Positions 4,698 to 22,524 of a stretch of DNA of 64,000 nt are shown here, piece by piece; position 1 is the first letter of the stretch; the number at the start of each line of letters is the position of its first letter. Where the stretch lies: contig JASAND010020050.1 of NCBI GenBank assembly GCA_030248195.1, positions 1 through 64,000 on the forward strand. The letters are read 5' to 3'. This DNA is from Trissonchulus latispiculum (Eukaryota; Nematoda; Enoplea; Enoplida; Ironidae). The notes under the pieces were generated by a model that was not told where the DNA came from, ran no database searches, and saw only the letters and a program-made list of their open reading frames with translations. A program made the translations under genes and the position numbers.

Positions 4698-4853
4698 CGA
4701 CGAACCTAAAGTAAGAAAACTTTCCCCTATTAAAGTTTTGACCTTACAATGAGTGACCCCTAAAAGTAACTGAAAATTTAAAACAATATATTTATAATAC
4801 AATGAGAAACAGTAACTTTTCAGTTGTTTCGGTTTTTATGCATTTAAAACGAT

Positions 4854-5099: not shown

Positions 5100-5384
5100 T
5101 TCTTTACTTTCAATGGTGAGTGAAAAAGCTGAACTTCCCTCTACCCTTCTCTCTTCTAGGTCCTGGGTACGAGGGTGCCTGACGCCTCCCGTTTGGGCTT
5201 GTCCTTGGTTTCTTCTTGGTCCTCCAACCTGGTAGAAGCGCTACATTAACTTTACTGATTTCTGCGAAATGACTACTATTAAATTGAACTAATTTCTCAG
5301 AAATATTGAGTGTACCTTTAAAACTGCATAGCTAAACTTCCACCACTAAAATTGGAACTTTAAAGATTTGGCAAGACTCCTGTG

Positions 5385-9719: not shown

Positions 9720-9723
9720 CTAG

Positions 9724-10641
9724 TGTAGCGCTGAGCTACCAGTATAACTGCGAGGCCGGAAATTGAACCCATGATTCGTTTAATAATGATTAAAATACCA
9801 CAAAGTCACAATGACAGCAACCTGAATCAAATGGGTTAAAACCCAATATGGGTTTTAACCCAACAATATGTTAGCATTGAGAATGTAATGCAATCAAACA
9901 AACAACTTTAGATAGCTGAACCGTTTCTAACAATTTAAAGTTCTCATCAAAATACTTTTAAACTGCTGAGCCTTTGCTAACCATTTGGAAACTTCCAAAG
10001 AAAGGAAGTTAGATACTGGCAGAATTTTAACTGTATTTTAGGATTATTCATAAACCACAGTTACTCGAAATGGTTTCAGACTGCTACTAGAAAATGTTTA
10101 TAACCAAGGGCCTAATGACCAACAAGACCATGACAAACAAGCCTAATGACTAATATGGCCTAGTCTAGACAGAGAATTTAAGTAAGCAGATGTTACAGCC
10201 GAAAGCATTCATTGCGTTAATGCGCTAGACAAGCAGAGAAGCTGAAATAACAGGCATGCAAAGATAAAGTAGAAACTGTATTCTTCAAAGTGCGCTGATT
10301 TGTGCATAAATAAAGTTAGCTTCTTATATAAAATTAACTAATCGGACATTTTGTATTTATGATTATCCTAGCCCCCTCCTTTGATGTACACACTATGCCT
10401 TAATTCCCTTTTTGAAGCAGAATTCTAAATTAATTTCCACTATAACAGGCGTCTAGCCCTTACACTCTTAGCAGAATTCTAAATGAATATTTTCAATAAT
10501 AACCCTCTCAAATCCCCTATGAGATACATCTGGCGATATCTAACACACCTCATGTGAAATATTTTCAAACTGGTATTTTCAAACTGGTACGTATGTGGAT
10601 ATGTGAATCTGAAATATGCAGTTTAGTTCATACTGGCTACA
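9724..10641 (-). repeat. 3' LTR
   Basis: Matches 20264-21181 base for base in my line-by-line comparison (constant offset 10,540). In element orientation it starts TGTAGCC and ends GCGCTACA. It contains a perfect 14-bp-arm hairpin at 9832-9862 (TGGGTTAAAACCCA and its complement) beside the module GAATCAAATGGGTTAAAACC. That module also occurs near 24611, 32163 and 36663 outside this element. Confidence 0.95.
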
Positions 10642-10682
10642 AGTCATTACGGCGGCGAAAAAAAGGCGTCCTCGCCGACAAG

Positions 10683-11735
10683 TTAAGAGGCAGAGCTCAG
10701 GGGTAGGACGACGTGAAGGAACGGTTGTGGGGTGGCGTCAATCCCCAAATTGAAACGGAATGCATGCGTGATGCACGTAGACAGGAGATGCCGGCCATCC
10801 GAAGACAAGTGAAGGCCATCACGAGCAAACAATCTCGGATCATAAAACAAAGGGGACAAGTCTAGGACTTGTATGTTGCGGGGAGTTGCCGAATCGGACA
10901 AAGAACCTAACAGACGCGATCGAAAAAGCTCGATAGAATGGTCCACGCGTGTATGCGCGTGGGACAGACGGGGAAGCAAAGAACACAGAACAAGAGTCTG
11001 GTGTGGATTGGCGGTGGCATATGGAAGAGCCCACTTAAGCAAGTTACGGGCAATCTTTGTAGCTGGAGACAACTTGTTGTCTTTGCTCAGGAGGTCGTTG
11101 GTGCCAGCAAGGACCACCAACACCTTCACATAAGGACCAGCCGCAGTACTGGCCACAGTGGTGATGAAACAGCGCTTAGCTCCCCTAATAGAAACCACAC
11201 GAGCACCGTCTTCAGAAACAGTAACGCCGGAAAGCAGCGAGTCTCCTACAGCTAGCGCAACTGGGAAATGGAAACAAGGACTAGGCTGATCTCGCAGCGC
11301 TTTGCGGACAGCCATGAGGATGCGGCCACCCCAGTTTTGCCCAGTACCACGCTGGGTACCCCAGAACGGGTCGGCGACGTTTTCATGCAGGGGAGCGGGC
11401 CATGTATCATGAAGGATCCGACGAAGGGAAGGATTTTGGGAAAACTTCTCAAAACAAAGACGAGTCAAGCAAAGTACTGCTACGTCGCGCCACTTTAAAT
11501 GAAAGGCCGGAACATCAGTAACTAGAGTGCGCGACAACTGCTTAACCTTCATTCCAGAAGGCTGGGGTTGCTGAAGAGTCACTGTGAGAGTATGGTCCTC
11601 AGTAGCGCGTGTCTTCGCGAGTTGATAGGCTCGCTCGACAGTTTCGTAGACATCATCATTCACTACAATCCGGCAAGCATGTAGGTTAGACAGTGGATGG
11701 GATTCCCCATTATAGCGGCACGGCCGGTGTAGATC
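10683..11735 (-). CDS. NADAR-domain plus SGNH/GDSL hydrolase accessory protein (spliced exon)
   Basis: The open frame runs 350 codons from a splice acceptor (AG at 11736-11737) to the stop at 10683-10685. It has no ATG in the first 60 codons, and the codon before the acceptor is a stop, so expression probably needs splicing. Residues 8-40 (LSN at 15-17, YETVERAYQ at 30-38, then AK) and about 93-147 (KFSQNP, DPFWG, GTGQN, GGRILMAVR) match the NADAR family pattern. The second half has SGNH blocks: GDSLL with Ser166, GTND with Asn213 and DGLH with Asp306/His309. Known NADAR proteins cleave N-glycosidic bonds of ADP-ribose-type or riboflavin-pathway substrates, and some reverse guanine ADP-ribosylation in DNA. 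SGNH enzymes are esterases or acetylhydrolases. The gene sits where Env is usually encoded in Gypsy-type retroviruses. The role in the element is unknown. Confidence 0.82.
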   Translation of the reverse strand, partial: DLHRPCRYNGESHPLSNLHACRIVVNDDVYETVERAYQLAKTRATEDHTLTVTLQQPQPSGMKVKQLSRTLVTDVPAFHLKWRDVAVLCLTRLCFEKFSQNPSLRRILHDTWPAPLHENVADPFWGTQRGTGQNWGGRILMAVRKALRDQPSPCFHFPVALAVGDSLLSGVTVSEDGARVVSIRGAKRCFITTVASTAAGPYVKVLVVLAGTNDLLSKDNKLSPATKIARNLLKWALPYATANPHQTLVLCSLLPRLSHAHTRVDHSIELFRSRLLGSLSDSATPRNIQVLDLSPLFYDPRLFARDGLHLSSDGRHLLSTCITHAFRFNLGIDATPQPFLHVVLPLSSAS

Positions 11736-11760
11736 CTAAAATATCGAAAGATGAAAGTGA
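11736..11760 (-). promoter_or_regulatory. Splice acceptor for the accessory gene
   Basis: On the minus strand a pyrimidine-rich run (CACTTTCATCTTTCGATATTTTAG, given here as the pieces CACTTTCATC and TTTCGATATTTTAG) ends in AG immediately before the open frame. The in-frame TAG of the acceptor would stop translation if unspliced, which supports removal by splicing. Confidence 0.7.
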
Positions 11761-12042
11761 GTCAGCGTAAAAAACACCGACAAAAAAGAACTTGTGGAAA
11801 ATTTTTCTTGAGTTCAGATGTAGAAGCCAAAACTTGAGATGTGTGAGAAAAGCAAGAACAGTAAGCAAAAGTAAGGTGTGCACCAGTTACCATTCAACAG
11901 ACGCCACAAATACCAAGTTAAGAGCAGGCATGCGAAAATTGACTGAAAACAAGAACAAAAGCAAAGACAACAGGAAAACAACCAAATCGAAATCTCAGCT
12001 AATTTAAGCAGAAGAGAAGGAATTGGGCGACCTGCATGTGCG

Positions 12043-12565
12043 GATGCTACTGTGACTTCGCCATCAGCACAAGCAGATCGAGCATAGATAAAAGAATACA
12101 CGAAGCTGCTGAGAATTCGAACATATAGGCAGGCAAAATAAACAGATCAGGAAATGGAGACTCAACAAAAGACAGTTAATCAGATCAAGAATTTTGGCGA
12201 CTGCACTTTCTGATGCTACTATGACTTCGCCACCAGAACGGGCAGATCGTGACAACGAGATAAGCGACATAGGAAGCAGAACTTGTTGAGAAACCGATAA
12301 TGTACAGAGACCACATACTCAAGCTTTATACAGCATGCACAGCTAAAACTCAGTGCTCTGTAGTGTGAATGTAAATTTAACAGAACGACTGCACAAGCTG
12401 GTGCTACTATGACTTCGCCACCAGAACGGGCAGATCGTGTTCGACGTAGTATGTGTAAACTACAGCGTTCACAGAAACACTGAACCTTAGCATCAGGAAT
12501 TGGTGGTTAGACCACAAACTATTACTGTCCAGTACGCGGAATCGCTACTATTACTTCGCCGATCC
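12043..12565 (-). repeat. Repeated 38-bp module in the spacer between Pol and the accessory gene
   Basis: Blocks containing GCTACTATGACTTCGCC and CCAGAACGGGCAGATCG (plus-strand reading) occur at 12043-12080 (diverged), 12212-12249, 12400-12437 and, weakly, from 12539. The second and third copies are nearly identical. Spacing is about 170-190 bp, then about 140. The spacer is otherwise non-coding. Confidence 0.75.
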
Positions 12566-12663: not shown

Positions 12664-15600
12664 TCAGGCAAATTCAAAACTACTAGCATCGGATTCGTCA
12701 ACGGCAGTGCCAGGTGACGTATTTGCATCTGTAGTGTTCTGTAGCAGCGGCGGAAGATAAGGGGCAAGCACTGGAGTAACCTTATTTTTGTGAACAACAA
12801 TGGGGACTGCATCAGGGTCGGAGAGAGAACGAACTACCAAGTTGGGATTTCTGATTTCGAGAACGCGATACGGTCCAATCCATTTTGGCTTGAACTTTGA
12901 GGCTGCACGTGGAGGTCGACGAAGCAAAACCTTGGTCCCAACAGTAATCTCTTGTGGACGGGCGCGGATGTCGTAATTGCGAGAATATCTGTCCTGAGCA
13001 CGGCGGATGTTGTCCTTTGCACGTTGCCAAGCAGCTTCCAGATACCCCAGCAAGGTGGTGATGTAGTTGTCGGTATGTTGGAAGCGGGAGTCTTCCGGAT
13101 CATAATGTTGGCCTGGTAACCGTGGATCACGACCGTGAATCATGTAGAAAGGACTTTCGCCCGTAGATTCGTGCAGAGCAGAGCGGTAGGCAAAAAGGAC
13201 AGGTTTTAAATAGTGGTCCCATTCATCATCGTGTTCAATGAGTTTAGAGATCATATCACCTAACGTTCTGTTAAAACGCTCAGTTAGGCCATTGCACTGG
13301 GGATGATATGGGGTTGTGTAGATTTTGCGGACACGCATCACATCACACAGTTGCTGAATGATTTCTGACAAGAAATTGGGACCACGGTCGGATAAGAGTT
13401 CGAGAGGAGCACCGTGCCGACAAATAATTTCCTCAAAGAATATGTTAGCGATAGTTATGCTCGTTTGATCTGGAATCGCAACTGCCTCAACCCATTTGGT
13501 GAAATAGTCAGTAAATACGACAGCATAAGAGTTTCCGTTTTGGGAAATTGGCAGTGGTCCAAGTATGTCGACACCCATTTTGTGAAATGGCTCCGTAACA
13601 GGAATAGGGTGAAGCGGTTCCCGATCGTGCGGATTGGGTAAACGTCGAATTTGGCACTGTGGACACGTTTGGCAGTACTTACGAACTGCAGTATACATAC
13701 CTGGCCAGTAGTAATGCTCCTGAATGCGGCGATACGTTTCTTTAAATCGCAAGTGGCCGGCTAGAGTGCTGTCGTGATGTTCCTGGAAAGCATTTCGTCG
13801 ATACTGGAAAGGCAAGGCCAACTGTTTCCATAAATCCGCGGCACGGCGATTGTGATAATGTAGATGATAGAGAACATCATTATCCAACACGTAGTTATCC
13901 TCTTCAGTGACAAGACGCCTAGCTTGAATAGGATCGTCGGGTAGCAGGCCACTACTCTTAAATGCGTACATAGCAGCAAACTCTGGATCCTGTCGTTGGT
14001 GCAGGCGCAGCTGAGCATTGATCAGTACAGCCACGATGCCAACCGGATTGCGGGACAGCGCATCGGCATTAGCGTGTTTCTTCCCGCTACGATGTATTAT
14101 CGTAGGTTTATAGCCAGCTAGTTTGACTGCCCAACGACACAGACGATCGGAATCATGTTCCTTTTCTAACAGCCATTTGAGCGCTGCATGATCGGTAACA
14201 ATAGTAACAAGGTGACCATAAATGTAGTGATGAAATTTCTTTACTGCCCACACAACAGCAAGGGCCTCCAGTTCTGTGATAACATAATTCTTCTCCGACT
14301 TCCGAAGCAAACGGCTGAAGTAAGATATCGGTCGCTCTTTGCCATCTTCAACTTGGGACAGAACAGCTCCAATGCCCGTCCGAGATGCATCTGTATGGAT
14401 AATGAAGGGGACCTTTATGTCAGGATACCGAAGAACGGGGGCTGAACAGAGGGCTTGTTTCAACTTGTCGAACGCGTGTTGACAATCGTGGGACCAGACA
14501 AATTTAACCTTGGCACCGGTTAGGGCATGTAGAGGTGCGGCAATCTCTGCAAATCCAGCAATGAAACGACGATAATAGCCGGCAAGCCCTAAGAAACTTC
14601 GTACGTCTGTTGGCGTCTTAGGCAGAGGAAATTCAGACACTGCGCGAAGTTTGTCCGGATCGGCTTCGATGCCGTGAGCGGAGACGACGTGCCCAAGAAA
14701 TGAAACCTTCGTTTTGGCAAAAACGCATTTGCGAGGTTTCAGCTTCAGTCGTGCATTTCGAAGGCACTGGAAGACCTTTTCCAAGTGTTCCAAGTGCTTC
14801 TCGAACGTCGGAGAAAAGACTATGACATCGTCGATATAGACAAGGCAGCTTTGCCAACACAGAGGGGCCAAGACAACATCCATCAACCGTTGGAAAGTCG
14901 GAGGAGCATTCGTTAGGCCCATCGGCATCACATTATACTCAAACAATCCGACGTGGGTGGTGAAAGCAGACCTTTCTTTCGACTCTTCAGCTAGCGGAAC
15001 TTGATAGAAACCGGAGTTGAGATCCAGAGTGGTGAACCAGCCATTGCCTCCGCCAAGGGCGTCCAGGGCTTCTTCAATCCTCGGCAGTGGGTATACATCC
15101 CGCTTTGTCACTGCGTTTACACGACGGTAGTCCACACAAAAACGATCAGTGCCGTCCTTTTTCGACACGAGCACCACTGGTGAACTCCAAGGTGACCGGC
15201 TAGGACGTATCATGCCATCATGAAGCTTTTGCTGCACATAGTCTTCTATTACTTTGCGCTTGCTGAGAGGAATGCGGTAAGGACGTTGTTTGAGCGGTTT
15301 TGCTTCGCCGACATCTATTGTATGATCTAAGACAGTAGTACGCCCGAGGTCATCGTCATGCTGAGAGAAGACATCTCTGAACTGATTAAGTAGTTTCGTC
15401 AATAAAGAACGTTGGTGCACCGATGTATCTGAATTTGACAGGTCAGCAGGACAAGTCGCATTTGGCTCGGGAGTGGAATGTGTAGCACTAGTTGCAAGTA
15501 CATGACCAAATCGAGCGGGTCCGCCCAAAGGCTCCGAAATGACATCTTGCTCCGTTAACTGTTCTACTGTGCCCAAACATGTACCTGCTGGTATTACGAT

Positions 15601-18600
15601 TGGTTGAGGAGCAGTATTCAAGACACGGACTATGGTAGTGTGTGTATTCGCTGCAGTCAGCGTAGCTGCTAGTGAAACGCCCTGACCAAAATTAGCATGT
15701 GGCTGAAACATCAGTGACTTAGACTGATGACGCACACAGACCGGCAGAGAACAAGAGAAAACAGCTTCTGTGCGAGCAGGTACTGCCCAATCTTCTGATG
15801 AAATAAGCTCTGCTGATAATACATCAGTACCTGAACTGAGTGATCGGCAAAATGGAAGAATATGCTTGCCTATGGCAACAGTATTGGAGGCGAAATCAAA
15901 AGCAATCGAACTGAAGCGAGACAAGAGATCAAGACCGAGTATACAAGGTGATGGTGCAGAGTCCACTACATAGACTGGATGCTTCACAAGAACACTGCCG
16001 AAGGAGAAGCTTGGTTGTAGAACCCCTGAGAGGTGTAGCGTTTGGCCAGTCATGGAACTAATAGCGGGACTACTCTCAGGCGTTAGCGCTAAATACGGCA
16101 AAGATTTGAACGATCTACGATAGATATCCTCGCGAAGCAGGGTGATCGAGGCTCCAGTGTCTATAAGAGCAGGTACCTGAATGCCATGGATGATTGCAAT
16201 GATAGTCATAGACGGGTAGGGGTCTAGGCTCAACACCGATCCACCACTTGAGCCCTTACGCTTGCTACTGCACAACACTCCAAAAATTATCAGAGATAAC
16301 TGAATAGCCGATAACAATGCAAGAGGAGAAGGTCCTGTGTAAACCGCGGACAGGAGAAGCAGAGATGTAAGACACGGGCGCGCTAGCTTCGTTGATGATA
16401 ACGCAAAAAAGTATCTTCCAGGACGTTCTTGGGACCGTGACCGTCTACGGACCGGTGTGGGGTCCCGATCCAACCTATCCATCGGAATCAGTTCATGCGA
16501 TTCATTGTGTGGATCTTGCCTAACCGGATCAGGGGCATGAGCGCCTGACGAACGTGACCGACGCCAGCGAGTGGGGCGAAACGAAACAAAAGATGCCCTG
16601 GACTGGCGGCAGTGACGACAGCAAAAACAACAACACAAAAGAAGGAAACAAAGGACTACTAAGCTGACCAATAAATACAAGAAGCCTAGTTGAGTGCGGG
16701 GAGGCGTGCCTGTACCTAGCAAATCTAGCTCTTCCTTCATCACTTTCTTAGTGATTCCTTCTGAAGCGTGAAGATGTGCTTCTGCGGAGTCATAGTCTGT
16801 CCAACTTAACGGGGCGACGCCACTGAATGGTGTCAGCGGAATTGGATCGATCAGTCCATACTGCACATTAATCTCCTGAGTTTTCTTTAACGTGTTACTT
16901 ATTAGCTTATTCCCCACACTTACCATGGTATAGCTGTGATGCTCCAGCCAAAGCACTTGGTACGACGGCATTGATATACGGGTACCAACTGTCTGATGTG
17001 CCAACTGCGGTGTATTTGTGACAACTACATGACTCTCATTGGTGTGTATTAATAACCCACTGGTCGTAAATGCAACTGTGGTGGTATTTTGTTTGCCTCG
17101 AATCTCGTGCTCCTGGCAAGCAGCGGCTGCATCCCGTTTTCCTTGATGTAAGGCCTGCAAACATGAACCTAATGCTGCCTCAACGACCTGGAGAGCCTCG
17201 GGTGGGCAAAGCCACAATGCGGGGAATTGCTTACATAAGGAAGAGTCCTGATAACTGAATGACTGCTTTGATGAACTACCGCTACTCGACAATATCGGAG
17301 GAAGTTTTAGACGGCGGGCAATGCCATGTGCAGCATCGTACCATCCAGCATTGTGTACATGGTATAATGGATAAACATTCTCTGGTCGAATGACTGGTAC
17401 CTCAAGCAGGAAAGCGAACGTGAGTTTGTACAAGTCGACTCGAACCGGATACACAATTGCTAGTTGGTACACGAGAGAAGGTTCCTGGGCTAAAAGAGAA
17501 CTGGAAAATTCTGGGGCATACATTAGCAGCTGTCGAGCTTTAGTTACAGACATTAAGGTAGGAGATAATCGTCCAGTTGTTGCTGCTTCTACAACAGCAT
17601 CTATCAGATTGAGCAGAGCCGTCTTTACGACATGCAATGTGATAGCACCGTCTGCATCAGAAATAGATAGCTCTGTTGCACATTCTAACTGTTCAAGAGA
17701 AGAGTGAAGATCAGCAACTGAATGATGAACAAAGGTGTACAGTTTCCTATTTGAAAGCTCGATTTCTTGCAGAGCTAGGGATCTCAGATGGGCTTGATCC
17801 TTTAACTTAGCCACAGCGACATTCAGTGCTCCTACCTCGGTCGACAATTTACCAAGATAAATACTATTGGCAATCCCTAAGCCGGCTCCGCCAATCCCTA
17901 GCAGGCCAGCGGCAATCAAACCTAATTGCCGTTTAGACCGGGACTCATTCTTCTGTCCGGAGTATTCGTGATTCTGTCTGCACAAATTGTCCCTACGGGA
18001 ACACACTTCCCGCAGCAGAGTACTGTAATACGTAGTGTCTAGAAGCCCAGAGTAGGACTCCGCTACAGATTCAATAGCTTCGCGGAGATTCTGGTATAAA
18101 GGGTGCAAGTGACACCTCCGGTTTGTTCTATAATCTCCGTCAGGCCTCCGCCTGGACCCTAAAAGAGAGCTAATGTTGGTGTGCAGAATAACAGGAAAGT
18201 ATCTGGTATTTTCAGGTACTAAGGCTAAACCAGCCGGCTCCAAGACGACGCCTACGCCGCTGTGCACAACTGTACTGATTCGTCTAAGCTCACCAGCTAA
18301 GTAGTCTTGATTACTGCCAAGAGCTGTTGGTAAGCCACAGAGCGCGATGAAAAGGGTCAGCATCATCACTAATTGGCGACCAACCTGAGTAGGAGCTCTG
18401 CAGCGATCTGCAGATTTTGTTTCCCTGTGCGACTTACTGTCACAGTTTGTCGGTCTCAAAGCACAGTCCATACCTGCAACGTTGGTTTCACCACCACAAC
18501 TGTACTGAGTTTCACTAACAACTTTGGTTTCCTCACAAAAGTTGCACTGGGTACCGCTGGACCTGGTCTCAGTGATACTGCATTGCACAGCTGCGGCAGC

Positions 18601-19932
18601 TGTCAGATCAGGCCGTTGCTGCAGTCTACGTACCTGTTCACGCAGAGACTGCAGTTCATCTTGGTCCGTTATGGTTAGCTGAGGGCCTGCGAACGCAGCT
18701 GGAAGATTAGGTGAACTGTCTCCGTGTACAGAAACAGACGCATGTGATTGATTAAGCTGAACTGCTTCCGCAGGAACCCAGTCCTCTTGTGCAGCAGGTG
18801 CCCAGTTCTGCTGTGCTAATCGCATTGTGTCTAATGCGGTTGCCAACTGGTCCTGACGCGGTTGGCTAGGACCTGAATAGGCGTGAGTGCCGGACCGAGG
18901 TCCGGAGCCTCGAGACCTGCCGCCATTGTTTTGTCGAGGGTTTCCCCCAGAGAACCTGTTCCCCTGACCTTGCCGACGCGGACAAGTGTTTCTCAAATGC
19001 CCAAGAGAACCGCACTCGTAACAGCGAGGACCGCTGTCAGCTCGAGAGGAAGGCGTTCGAACCGCCCTAGAAGCAGAATGTTGCTGCCGAACTGGAGTCT
19101 GCTGCAAGGTCTGCTGAAGAGCTTGCAAGGACGATTCAAACATGGTTTTCAGCCGTGTCTCTAAATTACGCAAGTCAGCTTCACTTACCTGGTTTGATTG
19201 TGTTCCAGCTGTCGCTGCAAGAGCATGGTTGTTATGTTGCTGATACTGACGGCCGTAGTCATCATTGCGGCGATGTCTGCGTGTATCTCTGGCATATCGA
19301 TTCCTCCCACCAGAATGCCTGTCCAGCCATGGCGCTGTGTTGAACAGCAAATGATCACGGGCTTCCTGTGCTCTGGCTCGAGATACAGCCTCCTCAAAAC
19401 TAGGTGGCTCCTGTGGGGAGGTCACAAACTGGAACAACCGCGGCAGCAAACCGCGCACAAAATGCTTGCGCTTTAGTAGATCCTGCGCTGTAGGATCTAA
19501 ACCACTAAAGCTTTCATAAACCAGTCGCTGAATGTCAAACGCATAGTCGCTGACTGGTTCAGATTCACCTTGTTTTCGATTTATCAACAGATCAACAGCA
19601 AGATCTGACGTAAATCTGTTTGAGAATTGCGTGCGGAGCGCTTGGATCAAAAGCGGATAGTTTGACCTCGTGGCTTGCGCCAGACCGTTATATACTACTT
19701 CTGCCCCGTGTTTCAGATACGAGGGCAAAATATCCGCTTTTCTCTGATCATCGGTTATGCCATTTGCGGCAACGTAACGCTCGAAGGCTCTCAGCCATTT
19801 TTCAAAATTTTCTCCCGACTGCCCATGAAAGGCGCCGGGAGTCATGCCAAGACCAACGTTAACACTGACAACAGACGCATGCAAATTACCGCCACCAGTG
19901 GTGGAACTAGCAGGTACAGACGGACTAGCCAT
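12664..19932 (-). CDS. Gag-Env-Pol polyprotein of the LTR element
   Basis: One frame of 2,422 residues from the ATG at 19932 (good context, G at -3 and +4) to the stop at 12664. The frame is open further upstream, but that extension has only a weak-context ATG at 19953. Domains in order: Gag with CCHC zinc knuckle at 304-317; Env-like segment about 521-1165; aspartic protease with DTG at 1258-1260 and ILG near 1330; reverse transcriptase with YIDD at 1699-1702; RNase H with Asp1848, Glu1887/1889 and Asp1914; integrase zinc finger (His 2052/2053 and 2060, Cys 2090 and 2093); catalytic D2122, D2182, E2218 (DD35E spacing); GPY at 2353-2355. No frameshift or stop separates Gag from Pol, so mature proteins would have to come from cleavage, splicing or readthrough control not visible here. 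The overall class is certain. The contiguous Env placement is seen directly. Confidence 0.95.
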   Translation of the reverse strand: MASPSVPASSTTGGGNLHASVVSVNVGLGMTPGAFHGQSGENFEKWLRAFERYVAANGITDDQRKADILPSYLKHGAEVVYNGLAQATRSNYPLLIQALRTQFSNRFTSDLAVDLLINRKQGESEPVSDYAFDIQRLVYESFSGLDPTAQDLLKRKHFVRGLLPRLFQFVTSPQEPPSFEEAVSRARAQEARDHLLFNTAPWLDRHSGGRNRYARDTRRHRRNDDYGRQYQQHNNHALAATAGTQSNQVSEADLRNLETRLKTMFESSLQALQQTLQQTPVRQQHSASRAVRTPSSRADSGPRCYECGSLGHLRNTCPRRQGQGNRFSGGNPRQNNGGRSRGSGPRSGTHAYSGPSQPRQDQLATALDTMRLAQQNWAPAAQEDWVPAEAVQLNQSHASVSVHGDSSPNLPAAFAGPQLTITDQDELQSLREQVRRLQQRPDLTAAAAVQCSITETRSSGTQCNFCEETKVVSETQYSCGGETNVAGMDCALRPTNCDSKSHRETKSADRCRAPTQVGRQLVMMLTLFIALCGLPTALGSNQDYLAGELRRISTVVHSGVGVVLEPAGLALVPENTRYFPVILHTNISSLLGSRRRPDGDYRTNRRCHLHPLYQNLREAIESVAESYSGLLDTTYYSTLLREVCSRRDNLCRQNHEYSGQKNESRSKRQLGLIAAGLLGIGGAGLGIANSIYLGKLSTEVGALNVAVAKLKDQAHLRSLALQEIELSNRKLYTFVHHSVADLHSSLEQLECATELSISDADGAITLHVVKTALLNLIDAVVEAATTGRLSPTLMSVTKARQLLMYAPEFSSSLLAQEPSLVYQLAIVYPVRVDLYKLTFAFLLEVPVIRPENVYPLYHVHNAGWYDAAHGIARRLKLPPILSSSGSSSKQSFSYQDSSLCKQFPALWLCPPEALQVVEAALGSCLQALHQGKRDAAAACQEHEIRGKQNTTTVAFTTSGLLIHTNESHVVVTNTPQLAHQTVGTRISMPSYQVLWLEHHSYTMVSVGNKLISNTLKKTQEINVQYGLIDPIPLTPFSGVAPLSWTDYDSAEAHLHASEGITKKVMKEELDLLGTGTPPRTQLGFLYLLVSLVVLCFLLLCCCFCCRHCRQSRASFVSFRPTRWRRSRSSGAHAPDPVRQDPHNESHELIPMDRLDRDPTPVRRRSRSQERPGRYFFALSSTKLARPCLTSLLLLSAVYTGPSPLALLSAIQLSLIIFGVLCSSKRKGSSGGSVLSLDPYPSMTIIAIIHGIQVPALIDTGASITLLREDIYRRSFKSLPYLALTPESSPAISSMTGQTLHLSGVLQPSFSFGSVLVKHPVYVVDSAPSPCILGLDLLSRFSSIAFDFASNTVAIGKHILPFCRSLSSGTDVLSAELISSEDWAVPARTEAVFSCSLPVCVRHQSKSLMFQPHANFGQGVSLAATLTAANTHTTIVRVLNTAPQPIVIPAGTCLGTVEQLTEQDVISEPLGGPARFGHVLATSATHSTPEPNATCPADLSNSDTSVHQRSLLTKLLNQFRDVFSQHDDDLGRTTVLDHTIDVGEAKPLKQRPYRIPLSKRKVIEDYVQQKLHDGMIRPSRSPWSSPVVLVSKKDGTDRFCVDYRRVNAVTKRDVYPLPRIEEALDALGGGNGWFTTLDLNSGFYQVPLAEESKERSAFTTHVGLFEYNVMPMGLTNAPPTFQRLMDVVLAPLCWQSCLVYIDDVIVFSPTFEKHLEHLEKVFQCLRNARLKLKPRKCVFAKTKVSFLGHVVSAHGIEADPDKLRAVSEFPLPKTPTDVRSFLGLAGYYRRFIAGFAEIAAPLHALTGAKVKFVWSHDCQHAFDKLKQALCSAPVLRYPDIKVPFIIHTDASRTGIGAVLSQVEDGKERPISYFSRLLRKSEKNYVITELEALAVVWAVKKFHHYIYGHLVTIVTDHAALKWLLEKEHDSDRLCRWAVKLAGYKPTIIHRSGKKHANADALSRNPVGIVAVLINAQLRLHQRQDPEFAAMYAFKSSGLLPDDPIQARRLVTEEDNYVLDNDVLYHLHYHNRRAADLWKQLALPFQYRRNAFQEHHDSTLAGHLRFKETYRRIQEHYYWPGMYTAVRKYCQTCPQCQIRRLPNPHDREPLHPIPVTEPFHKMGVDILGPLPISQNGNSYAVVFTDYFTKWVEAVAIPDQTSITIANIFFEEIICRHGAPLELLSDRGPNFLSEIIQQLCDVMRVRKIYTTPYHPQCNGLTERFNRTLGDMISKLIEHDDEWDHYLKPVLFAYRSALHESTGESPFYMIHGRDPRLPGQHYDPEDSRFQHTDNYITTLLGYLEAAWQRAKDNIRRAQDRYSRNYDIRARPQEITVGTKVLLRRPPRAASKFKPKWIGPYRVLEIRNPNLVVRSLSDPDAVPIVVHKNKVTPVLAPYLPPLLQNTTDANTSPGTAVDESDASSFEFA
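16441..18372 (-). other. Env-like class I fusion glycoprotein region lying between Gag and protease
   Basis: Residues about 521-1165. It starts with a hydrophobic signal-like segment (LTLFIALCGL at 525-534). A multibasic site RSKR at 665-668 is followed at once by an Ala/Gly/Leu/Ile-rich fusion-peptide-like stretch (670-688). Next comes a heptad-like segment and a motif resembling IDAVVEAATTGRLSP (about 777-791), the type found in baculovirus F and errantivirus Env proteins. Several potential N-glycosylation sites (NIS, NES, NTT, NES) are present. A membrane anchor lies at about 1081-1105, ending in a Cys cluster and a basic tail. A further hydrophobic segment lies at about 1190-1222, before the protease. 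Family membership is inferred from architecture. Glycoprotein topology would require the signal segment to be recognised internally or exposed by splicing or proteolysis. Confidence 0.8.
18373..19932 (-). other. Gag portion of the polyprotein
   Basis: About 520 residues. A helical capsid-like region (residues about 35-200, with a QGESEPVSDY-type retrotransposon Gag signature around 121-130) is followed by a Gln-rich and Arg/Gly-rich linker and one CX2CX4HX4C nucleocapsid knuckle at 304-317. After the knuckle comes a Gly/Arg/Ser stretch, then a low-complexity region with several Cys. A strong splice-donor sequence interrupts this coding region at 19188/19189. Confidence 0.9.
19181..19192 (-). 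promoter_or_regulatory. Strong splice donor inside gag, phase 0
   Basis: The minus strand reads CCAG|GTAAGTGA, close to the ideal donor. The cut falls exactly after a gag codon (Gln248 when counted from the ATG at 19932). Joined to the acceptor at 11735 the frame would continue without a shift, because both sides are phase 0. The pairing of these two sites is inference. Confidence 0.55.
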
Positions 19933-20243
19933 AGCTGGAAACAGAAGAAGCATACACAAAATATGCAACAAGAAAAACACAATCGTGGAAATGAGCTGTA
20001 CTTGTCAAACAGATTAGATCAGCTTAGTACCTTAGTTTTCTTCACTCTGTCAGCAGCAAGCATAGTCACAGAAACTGAAGGTCCGGGCAGTAAACCAGTG
20101 GGACAGACAAAGGTAAAGAAAAGCGCTGAAAAATTCTCCAATGGCTATATCAGTAACGAAAAGTCAGATCAAAGAATGCCGTCGGAAACCGATTGAGTAA
20201 GCAGCACCGTCTGTCAGCAGAGTCACAGCGATAGGGCACCACA

Positions 20244-20261
20244 ACCCTACTCGCAGCGCCA
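20244..20261 (-). promoter_or_regulatory. Primer binding site, probably for tRNA-Ser
   Basis: Two bases inside the 5' LTR the minus strand reads TGGCGCTGCGAGTAGGGT. This is complementary to a tRNA 3' end of the form ACCCTACTCGCAGCGCCA. From memory, animal tRNA-Ser(UGA) ends very similarly (about two differences over 18 bases). The TGG start, position and length fit a standard PBS. The tRNA identity is a recollection, not a search result. Confidence 0.75.
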
Positions 20262-20263
20262 GA

Positions 20264-21181
20264 TGTAGCGCTGAGCTACCAGTATAACTGCGAGGCCGGA
20301 AATTGAACCCATGATTCGTTTAATAATGATTAAAATACCACAAAGTCACAATGACAGCAACCTGAATCAAATGGGTTAAAACCCAATATGGGTTTTAACC
20401 CAACAATATGTTAGCATTGAGAATGTAATGCAATCAAACAAACAACTTTAGATAGCTGAACCGTTTCTAACAATTTAAAGTTCTCATCAAAATACTTTTA
20501 AACTGCTGAGCCTTTGCTAACCATTTGGAAACTTCCAAAGAAAGGAAGTTAGATACTGGCAGAATTTTAACTGTATTTTAGGATTATTCATAAACCACAG
20601 TTACTCGAAATGGTTTCAGACTGCTACTAGAAAATGTTTATAACCAAGGGCCTAATGACCAACAAGACCATGACAAACAAGCCTAATGACTAATATGGCC
20701 TAGTCTAGACAGAGAATTTAAGTAAGCAGATGTTACAGCCGAAAGCATTCATTGCGTTAATGCGCTAGACAAGCAGAGAAGCTGAAATAACAGGCATGCA
20801 AAGATAAAGTAGAAACTGTATTCTTCAAAGTGCGCTGATTTGTGCATAAATAAAGTTAGCTTCTTATATAAAATTAACTAATCGGACATTTTGTATTTAT
20901 GATTATCCTAGCCCCCTCCTTTGATGTACACACTATGCCTTAATTCCCTTTTTGAAGCAGAATTCTAAATTAATTTCCACTATAACAGGCGTCTAGCCCT
21001 TACACTCTTAGCAGAATTCTAAATGAATATTTTCAATAATAACCCTCTCAAATCCCCTATGAGATACATCTGGCGATATCTAACACACCTCATGTGAAAT
21101 ATTTTCAAACTGGTATTTTCAAACTGGTACGTATGTGGATATGTGAATCTGAAATATGCAGTTTAGTTCATACTGGCTACA
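20264..21181 (-). repeat. 5' LTR
   Basis: Same 918-bp sequence as 9724-10641. It should carry the promoter and transcription start for the minus-strand element. No confident TATA box or initiator was assigned. The right flank CTAG at 21182-21185 matches the left flank at 9720-9723. Confidence 0.95.
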
Positions 21182-21279
21182 CTAGCCAGTGACTCGGCAA
21201 TGAGCAGTCCATGGCATGGATAATTAGCACTCTATCCCATCAGCAGTCAGCACAGGATAGGAGCTGGCGGTGTAGCATT

Positions 21280-22524
21280 TAAAGTCAGACCAAAAAATGT
21301 AGGGTGCGAAATTGTTTTGTTAATACTGAATTACCGGTACATTTTTGCTGCAGCAATGTATATATTTTCTGAACCGTCATGGCATGGACTTTCTTTTGGT
21401 TGAAAAAAGGTGAGCCCATGTCCCAAACATATTGAATTCAAATTCCAAATATAAGCTAATTTCGTCAAGAATTGGGGTAGTTATTCAGTTTTTAGATTTT
21501 CAAAATCCTTTGATCTTTGCTGCTTTTCCAACTTTGACTGACTATTACTCGCTCACACAATGGAAAAATATTTCATTTGGATTTCCAGGACCCCTTACGT
21601 GTCAGCTGTCATGTGATTTATGTGGTTTTTCAAAATTTGAAAATCGATTTTTTCGAAAAATACCACTTTTTGACACAAAATTTTGGCAATGCGAATCCAG
21701 CAAAAGCGAGTAAAAGTAGCATAATCATAAATTGTAATCGGAGCTAAATGCAACGATATAAAGTTATCGTGGCCGCGACTCATATTTCCTCCGCAATGAA
21801 TTTTCAAACAATTTCGCTTTTTAGCTGGTTTTTGGCTAATTTTTCCAACTTTGACTGGCTATTTATTACTCGCGACTCACTCAATGGAAAAATTAGCCAA
21901 AAACCAGCTAAAAAACGAAATTGTTTAAAAATTCATTGCGGAGGAAATATTAGTCGCAGCCGCGATAACTTTAGATCGTTGCATTTAGCTCCGATTACAA
22001 TTTATGATTATGCTACTTTTACTCGCTTTTGCTGGATTCGCATTGCCAAAATTTTGTGTCAAAAAGTGGTATTTTTCGAAAAAATCGATTTTCAAATTTT
22101 GAAAAACCACATAAATCACATGACAGCTGACACGTAAGCGGTCCTGGAAATCCAAATGAAATATTTTTCCATTGTGTGAGCGAGTAATAGTCAGTCAAAG
22201 TTGGAAAAGCGGCAGAGATCAAAGGATTTTGAAAATCGAAAAAATTGAATAACTATCGCAATCCTTGACGAAATTAGCTTATATAAGGAGTTGTTTGGGA
22301 CATGGGCTAATTGTCCACCTAACGGCTAGTTCCTGGCGTCTACTGATATTTCAAAACTTAAAAAATCGGCTTCTTTTGATGAATTTTAATTTTTTTAATT
22401 TTTTTTCAACCAAAAGAAAGTTCATGCCATGACGGTTCAGAAACTGTATAGATTGCTGCAGCAAAAATTTACCGGTAGTATAAACAAAACAATTTCGCTC
22501 CCTACATTTATTGGTCAGACTTTA
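21280..22524. mobile_element. Foldback element of about 1.25 kb
   Basis: The left arm 21280-21847 is repeated as its reverse complement at 21885-22524, with only scattered differences and a few small indels. The central spacer is about 37 bases. The ends read TAAAGTC(A/T)GACC. No coding capacity beyond chance frames that mirror each other. It lies about 100 bp from the retroelement's right end. No unambiguous target duplication was found. Confidence 0.85.

Follow-up and report, generated by a model that had tools for sequence, protein, structure and literature searches.

Each half of the gene described here has counterparts in known retroelements. NADAR domains have been reported in the Pol of a Gypsy element of Ectocarpus and in open reading frame 1 (ORF1) of a Tx1 long interspersed nuclear element (LINE) of Crassostrea gigas (PMC12477816). 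In long terminal repeat (LTR) elements of bdelloids, published accounts describe GDSL ORF3s, ORF3s made from spliced messages, ORF types common to several element classes, and one ORF3 that combines DEDDy and GDSL (PMC5408684). The esterase of the ZfL2-1 ORF1 protein (ORF1p) is reported to bind lipids, not oligo-A RNA (PMC3905857), and CERV of Cer1 is described as having its C-terminal half 3' of pol, spliced to exons, three of them read in the gag frame (PMC10309623). NADARs hydrolyse ADP-ribosyl-guanine, an activity reported to be conserved in eukaryotic NADARs (PMC11543638), and clams are reported to contain an activity that ADP-ribosylates guanine N2 in DNA (PMC8883491, PMC11209040). Here, we analyze a stretch of 64,000 nucleotides (hereafter the window) from the nematode Trissonchulus latispiculum (assembly GCA_030248195.1, contig JASAND010020050.1, positions 1 to 64,000). 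As judged from its sequence, it holds a young, envelope-bearing Ty3/gypsy-like element whose ORF3 is an accessory frame encoding a NADAR domain followed by an SGNH hydrolase domain. Our tentative reading, to which we give somewhat less than even weight, is that this NADAR-SGNH enzyme is made from spliced RNA and counters host ADP-ribosylation of the nucleic acid of the element.

The accessory gene is read from 11735 down to 10683 on the minus strand, and plus-strand translation of the same interval contains many stops. It lies between the integrase side of the gag-env-pol frame (12664-20004, minus) and the 3' LTR (9724-10641). The initial annotation, made from the letters alone, had correctly placed an intact frame of 350 codons (stop to stop) between pol and the 3' LTR, without stating its strand, and all the motifs that it had picked out are present in the protein: LSN, VERAYQ, KFSQNP, DPFWG, GTGQN and GRILMAVR for NADAR, and GDSLL, GTND and DGLH for SGNH. 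Its NADAR assignment was borne out by Pfam-A (PF08719, E = 3.8e-16, 60.2 bits versus a curated cut-off of 35.1). Fold comparison also assigns the domain to the NADAR fold, and two PDB chains, YbiA among them, match it at E ≤0.001. Its SGNH assignment fared less evenly in Pfam, with Lipase_GDSL_2 matching at 1.2e-5 (26.4 bits, under the curated cut-off of 32.9) and Lipase_GDSL at 0.097. However, when a 14-row SGNH family profile was compared with solved structures, the best match was the esterase of the ORF1p of the ZfL2-1 retrotransposon (PDB 4c1b, 2.4e-8), followed by a putative platelet-activating-factor protein (1.1e-7). A VIA-align comparison of the SGNH half produced no clear leader, and a single-sequence AlphaFold2 model of the accessory protein was useless (mean predicted local distance difference test score 39). 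Because the family profile matches SGNH structures and the catalytic columns are invariant in relatives, the SGNH assignment appears sound despite the sub-cut-off Pfam score. A chance reading frame is excluded by the profile matches together with purifying selection between copies. On sequence grounds, the accessory product is thus a two-domain NADAR + SGNH protein.

Residues E34, K41 and E118 of the NADAR domain align with the catalytic E43, K50 and E125 of the Phytophthora nicotianae NADAR, the E118/E125 correspondence being deduced from the published E..D..W spacing, a spacing one residue shorter in the window (PMC11543638). All 17 aligned rows have both glutamates, with either K or R at the K41 position; a K-to-R change in the Escherichia coli C7 NADAR is reported to retain in vitro hydrolysis (PMC11543638). 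The Asp-Ser, Gly, Asn and His columns of SGNH are invariant in the same 17 rows. The Asp of the DxxH motif stands three residues before the His in the window protein and two before it in most other rows. The 17-row count omits L017-L020, which are near-identical to the window, and includes two close pairs (L028/L029 and L031/L032); both sets of catalytic residues are retained in rows just 24-28% identical to the window protein. Nei-Gojobori ratios of nonsynonymous to synonymous change (dN/dS) over the accessory frame were 0.12 for the window versus L021 (synonymous divergence, dS, 0.37) and 0.12 for L027 versus L031 (dS 0.54), and the NADAR domain alone gave 0.07 in both comparisons. The close pairs L031/L032 and L028/L029 gave 0.13 and 0.15, respectively, and the close copies of the window's own family (L017-L020) gave 0.26-0.44 with few changes. 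By these comparisons, the accessory gene is under purifying selection with its catalytic residues kept, and the steps from sequence up to a predicted catalytic competence are supported. The glutamate at the E125 position places the NADAR half with the YbiA subfamily, the BC4488 subfamily having aspartate there. This YbiA-type residue, like the presence of YbiA among the two PDB matches, would suit metabolite repair as proposed for YbiA, in which damaged or riboflavin-pathway N-glycosides are hydrolysed to the nutritional benefit of the cell or the element. We find this reading quite improbable: retention and exchange of such an enzyme by a retroelement would be hard to explain, and, to our knowledge, animals do not make riboflavin.

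The gene is widespread in its own genome (733.8 Mb, 21,732 contigs), in which at least 117 matches to the accessory protein were found at E 1e-3. Of the 117 listed matches, 30, window included, cover at least 250 of the 350 residues in a matched stretch without stop, and six of these 30 are members of the window's own family, at 92-100% identity. Twenty loci were fetched besides the window. The initial annotation had proposed seeking the same fusion in other LTR elements, and pol matches do lie upstream of the accessory frame in 18 of the 20 loci (integrase alone in L022, L025 and L027); L017 and L018 have no pol match within the stretch covered. By local tblastn at 1e-4, the NADAR piece of the window matches 19 of the 20 loci (not L030), and the SGNH piece matches 13 (not L026, L027, L030, L031, L032, L033 and L036), the SGNH assignment in these seven resting on alignment and kept motifs. 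Among 13 diverse family rows at E 0.01, Pfam recognizes NADAR in all 13 and Lipase_GDSL_2 in eight. A neutral passenger gene from the host would have precedent, captured genes being known in retroelements, but this explanation is close to refuted and in our view hardly credible, in light of the dN/dS of 0.12, the kept catalytic residues and the pol matches upstream in 18 of 20 loci.

A second dispersed NADAR family was also seen in this genome (L037 1-2665, L038 1-2770 and L039 1-2361; contigs C8957 and C14196). On C8957, a DEDDy-type exonuclease (PF01612, 6e-5, just under cut-off) lies upstream of NADAR in one long frame, and frames with protein-kinase domains (Pkinase, 2e-21 or better) are found near this family on C8957 and C14196. 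A pol frame was not noticed in the stretches covered, of which only five frames were scanned.

Comparison of three loci (L028, L034 and L035) shows how the accessory gene relates to the rest of the element. Over env, protease, reverse transcriptase (RT) and most of the integrase, their nucleotide identity is 93-100% in 300-base windows, and dS of RT is 0.04-0.05. A first breakpoint occurs near 4800, inside the integrase match, where L034 falls to 73-87% versus L028 and L035. A second occurs near 5280, at the end of the integrase match, where L028 versus L035 falls from 90-98% to about 60%. Over the accessory frames, pairs are at roughly 50-70% (300-base windows), and synonymous change is saturated over the whole frame in both pairs computed (L028/L034 and L028/L035). 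Each of the three loci has a different NADAR-SGNH frame, of 379, 395 and 384 codons stop to stop, respectively, with the S, G, N, H and E, E residues intact. Because near-identical cores bear strongly diverged accessory frames, exchange rather than gradual change is indicated, and the two different breakpoints imply at least two exchange events. On this sequence evidence, the accessory gene is swapped as a cassette between near-identical element cores. Copies of the gene were found on separate contigs, which, together with dN/dS and the two different breakpoints, makes a passenger gene, an assembly artefact or a chance reading unlikely. Phylogenetic trees point in the same direction. In the RT tree the window groups with L026, L031 and L032, and in the accessory-protein tree with L023, and each data set rejects the grouping of the other (approximately unbiased test, p 3.1e-5 and 1.2e-6); both trees omit L017, L018, L022, L025 and L027, which have no long RT match. 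This deeper discordance is weaker evidence than the breakpoints, because the groupings to be tested were chosen with the trees already in view and branches are long, that of L023 above all. Three cassettes on one core type could also be taken to mean that the cassette is a superinfection or compatibility factor, deciding which elements coexist and for that reason exchanged between cores. We are aware of nothing that connects the chemistry of NADAR or SGNH enzymes with interference, and consider this very improbable.

How the accessory protein would be expressed is less obvious, for there is no ATG near the start of its frame, the first being codon 62. A 3' splice-acceptor-like site immediately precedes the frame, and at 16 of the 20 fetched loci such a site stands at the frame start or ≤33 bases from it, in phase 0; in L022, L026, L027, L031 and L032 it is directly followed by ATG. 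It is weak (3.8) in L024, and our script ranked another site higher in L030 and L033 (splice-site scores are based on approximate frequency tables). In the leader, an ATG at 20063 begins a run of 11 codons up to a donor of modest score at 20031 (rank 41 of 741), in phase 0; without splicing, this ATG starts an upstream frame of 14 codons whose stop lies ahead of gag. The leader of a diverged sister copy (L040) hardly aligns with that of the window, yet has an ATG, 11 codons ending in KKTK and a phase-0 donor. The window pair alone is unremarkable, 23% of shuffled leaders holding one as good, whereas equal exon length in both leaders occurred in 0.1% of 2,000 shuffled-pair draws, shared residues not counted (thresholds were set near the observed donor scores). 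Among four further families, an 11-codon ATG-donor pair was found in L073 and L074, each time among several unrelated pairs and with unclear leader coverage. A start at ATG 11891, directly before a donor that would define a small intron (11890-11736), was rejected because sister copy L021 has lost this ATG but retains the splice-like sites. Most likely, then, the accessory protein is made from spliced RNA, with the leader exon giving the start codon.

The strongest donor of the element lies elsewhere: CAG|GTAAGT at 19189 in gag is near-perfect, the best of 741 and in phase 0, and it is kept, also in phase 0, in L040. Repeats are present upstream of the acceptor, and the place of the gene 3' of pol equals that of CERV, which is described as spliced to gag-frame exons (PMC10309623). 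These features would fit an RNA-fate regulator like CERV of Cer1, possibly Gag-fused by splicing and governing export or stability of unspliced RNA. Since in L027 the strong donor within gag does not keep phase with the gag reading frame around it, we judge this improbable, and for the accessory protein we prefer the leader-exon start both to ATG 11891 and to Gag fusion via 19189. Separately, the second best acceptor-like site of the element, at 19935 (TTCTGTTTCCAG), precedes the ATG of gag (19932) by two bases, and gag may also be read from spliced RNA.

We then looked for the domain pair in other proteins. At E 1e-3, the window protein has no match among 5.8 billion proteins, and the NADAR piece alone has none at 0.01 among 8 candidates. 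In viral contigs, 10 stretches fitted the pattern of the window protein and 0 were confirmed, and the SGNH piece has no match at E 1 in phages and plasmids. A 13-row family profile, scored among the 7,996 candidates sharing most words, found at least 22 proteins, of which nine were read and eight scanned with Pfam. Two metagenome proteins, P0001 and P0002, have SGNH first and NADAR second, the reverse of the window order (Lipase_GDSL_2 0.0014 and 3.8e-6, respectively, both under the curated cut-off), and P0002 ends in two CCHC-like knuckles, identified by eye. P0005 and P0008 show weak coiled-coil-type matches before NADAR, and P0011 appears similar by eye; in our reading, all three resemble LINE ORF1 proteins. 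Yellow head and gill-associated viruses, giant viruses and phages likewise have proteins with NADAR-like folds. The NADAR and SGNH domains thus seem to have been joined more than once, which suggests one shared task. The SGNH part of P0002 also matches the OSK domain of Oskar (2.2e-4, under cut-off), which has an SGNH-like fold and binds RNA.

What could this task be? In the mechanism that we propose, the start codon would come from a short leader exon, spliced onto the acceptor just ahead of the NADAR domain. The NADAR half would bind ADP-ribose and cleave the N-glycosidic bond of ADP-ribose on guanine in element RNA or cDNA. The SGNH half would act as an acyl-esterase, serving either to carry the enzyme to membranes or particles, with membrane anchoring as its ZfL2-1 relative may achieve (PMC3905857), or to strip acyl or ester-linked groups from the same modified targets. 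Together they would prevent ADP-ribosylation by the host from halting reverse transcription or integration, and so act in counter-defence. The ADP-ribose binding, the substrates and the counter-defence role are what we infer. Erasure of ADP-ribose from element nucleic acid appears the most likely task because of NADAR chemistry, guanine ADP-ribosylation in clams, the viral and phage NADAR-like folds, and the exposure of guanine when element RNA is reverse transcribed into single-stranded DNA. We also count for counter-defence the finding of near-identical cores with different intact cassettes, as for arms-race genes. The suggestion in the initial annotation that the element removes ADP-ribose or acyl marks is compatible with our findings and is the reading that we favour as well. 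That annotation also holds in naming an intact retroelement accessory NADAR-SGNH gene with catalytic residues kept; what it left out were the strand, the missing start codon, the likely splicing, the cassette exchange, and the described NADAR and GDSL precedents (PMC12477816, PMC5408684).

Several points weigh against the proposed mechanism. DarT (PF14487) gave no match in the own genome at E 1e-3, in a search whose control was found in 1 of 14, and for the host of the element the clam enzymes serve only as an analogy. (ART, PF01129, likewise gave no match there, but its control was silent and the search is hence uninformative.) Some conserved NADAR positions vary among relatives: D122 is S in four and C in two, G126 is A or T in four, Q38 is T in two, and W125 is Y in two. 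Four of the 20 loci (L023, L028, L029 and L035) lack a clear acceptor. Finally, the lipid binding reported for ZfL2-1 agrees with targeting no less than with erasure (PMC3905857). The protein might accordingly be an assembly or targeting factor, its SGNH half binding membranes or lipids, its NADAR half nucleic acid or a nucleotide, and catalysis being secondary; the knuckles at the end of P0002, like those of an ORF1 packaging protein, would agree with this. Pure binding would not require the catalytic residues of both halves to be kept at 24-28% identity, and we hold this alternative to be unlikely, if worth serious consideration.

A broader version of the ADP-ribose-eraser reading, doubtful but slightly ahead of a targeting factor in our estimation, is that retroelements at least twice joined an ADP-ribose glycohydrolase and an SGNH esterase, in opposite orders (NADAR-SGNH in an LTR ORF3 and SGNH-NADAR in ORF1-like proteins), and traded them as a cassette that recombines onto a gag-env-pol backbone of unusual layout. 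The pair would erase host ADP-ribosylation of nucleic acid in two steps, and the hosts, presumably invertebrates, would then possess an undescribed ADP-ribosylation defence against retroelements. If the enzyme does erase ADP-ribose from nucleic acid, this would hint that hosts tag the RNA or cDNA of retroelements with ADP-ribose as a defence, in a eukaryotic parallel to bacterial DarT1-NADAR, and the enzyme would be a ready tool to seek that defence.

The features of the element are collected in Table 1. The insertion is young, because its LTRs are identical over 918 bp and flanked by a ctag duplication. Its TG..CA LTRs, target-site duplication within 4-6 bp and protease-RT-RNase H-integrase order are those of Ty3/gypsy elements (Metaviridae), as judged by structural criteria. 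Directly upstream of the 3' LTR (10642-10685, element strand) there is no polypurine tract, the bases there being GCCGCCGTAATGACT; this is not decisive against Ty3/gypsy because pol, primer-binding site, LTRs and target-site duplication are present. The primer-binding site is, we assume, tRNA-Ser-like. The 68-nt repeats are possibly an RNA export or splicing element. The Env-like part has no Pfam match at 0.1 and no PDB match at 1. It sits between Gag and protease, not 3' of pol as in errantivirus-type elements, and homologues upstream of protease or pol were found in eight of the 20 fetched loci (L026, L027, L028, L029, L031, L032, L034 and L035). The remaining 12 lack an Env-like match, several being too short to reach it; L023, L024, L030, L033 and L036 contain DNA upstream of RT and have none there. 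Among the matches listed in a search of the open-access literature, we recognized no description of an env gene between gag and pol. The Troyka LTR lineage was rejected as the identity of the element: its CG..CG ends, 3-bp target-site duplication and lack of env, as described, do not fit (PMC12440569). In the flank just outside the 5' LTR lies an inverted repeat (21489-22243) with 359-nt arms that are 97% complementary.

Table 1. Features of the Ty3/gypsy-like element and its accessory gene (window coordinates)
Feature	Position	Strand	Basis or remark
Accessory frame (ORF3), NADAR-SGNH, 350 codons stop to stop	10683..11735	minus	Reading-frame analysis, Pfam
NADAR domain, residues 11-148	11292..11705	minus	Pfam, alignment, fold comparison
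SGNH hydrolase domain, about residues 155-330; S166, G185, N213, H309	10746..11273	minus	Pfam, alignment, family profile
3' splice-acceptor-like site, T-rich tract + TAG|, immediately before frame	11736..11790	minus	Rank 18 of 660 in element; kept in L021
Putative start exon, 11 codons (MLAADRVKKTK), donor AAG|GT, phase 0	20031..20063	minus	Same length, phase and KKTK| end in diverged sister copy L040
5' LTR, 918 bp, TG..CA	20264..21181	minus	0 differences versus 3' LTR over 918 bp
3' LTR	9724..10641	minus	LTR self-comparison
Target-site duplication ctag	9720..9723 (other copy 21182-21185)		Flanks
Primer-binding site TGGCGCTGCGAGTAGGG, just inside 5' LTR	20245..20261	minus	Same 17 bases in L040 and L042; one mismatch in L027
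gag-env-pol, single frame without stop	12664..20004	minus	Reading-frame analysis; pieces profile-searched separately
Gag part, one CCHC knuckle (0.0037, under cut-off)	18385..19932	minus	Profile search; contains strong donor at 19189
Env-like part (by eye): hydrophobic start, RSKR site, G/A-rich fusion-peptide-like stretch, C-terminal transmembrane stretch	16555..18384	minus	Sequence; homologous part in 8/20 fetched loci
Protease, RT, RNase H, integrase	12667..16554	minus	gag-asp_proteas 6.9e-7, RVT_1 1.1e-34, RT_RNaseH 1.6e-38, Integrase_H2C2 2.4e-20, rve 1.3e-12
Three spaced 68-nt repeats, TTCTGGTGGCGAAGTCATAGTAGCA-like core (minus), between pol and accessory gene	12013..12437	minus	Repeat search; cores visible in alignment with sister copy L021

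Compared with known systems, the element shares with the Ectocarpus Gypsy a NADAR domain in a Ty3/gypsy-type element, but there NADAR is described inside Pol, whereas here NADAR and SGNH together form a frame of their own 3' of pol, and the element also has an Env-like part (PMC12477816). The Crassostrea gigas Tx1 LINE likewise has a YbiA-type NADAR in a retroelement protein, but it is a non-LTR element with NADAR in ORF1, and the passages describing it do not mention SGNH (PMC12477816). Bdelloid Vesta, compared by its published description, resembles the window in having an SGNH ORF3 in an LTR element, with two enzyme domains per ORF3 possible, and differs in that this description does not mention NADAR (PMC5408684). 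ZfL2-1 ORF1p, whose esterase is the best solved match of our SGNH family profile, belongs to a non-LTR element and has a coiled coil, and the matched chain is without NADAR. Like the window gene, CERV is an accessory protein encoded 3' of pol in a Gypsy element; it is made from spliced RNA, as is predicted here, but is described as having no known relatives and as needed for RNA export (PMC10309623). The NADARs of DarT1-NADAR toxin-antitoxin systems and of eukaryotes share the fold, catalytic E and K, and YbiA-type E with the window, whereas DarT1-linked NADARs are reported to have D at the E118 position and most NADARs to be free-standing domains (PMC11543638). P0001 and P0002 combine SGNH-like and NADAR domains as the window does, but with SGNH first and, in P0002, added CCHC-like knuckles. 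In agreement with the initial annotation, we recognized no description of an LTR element with a NADAR-SGNH fusion among the matches listed in the open-access literature. Each half thus has a retroelement precedent, and the pair on one LTR ORF3 appears to be new. Irrespective of what it acts on, the gene clearly exemplifies an accessory module of a retroelement that purifying selection maintains and that passes from one backbone to another. The backbone is unusual too: its Env-like part falls between Gag and protease, unlike the common order gag-pol-env.
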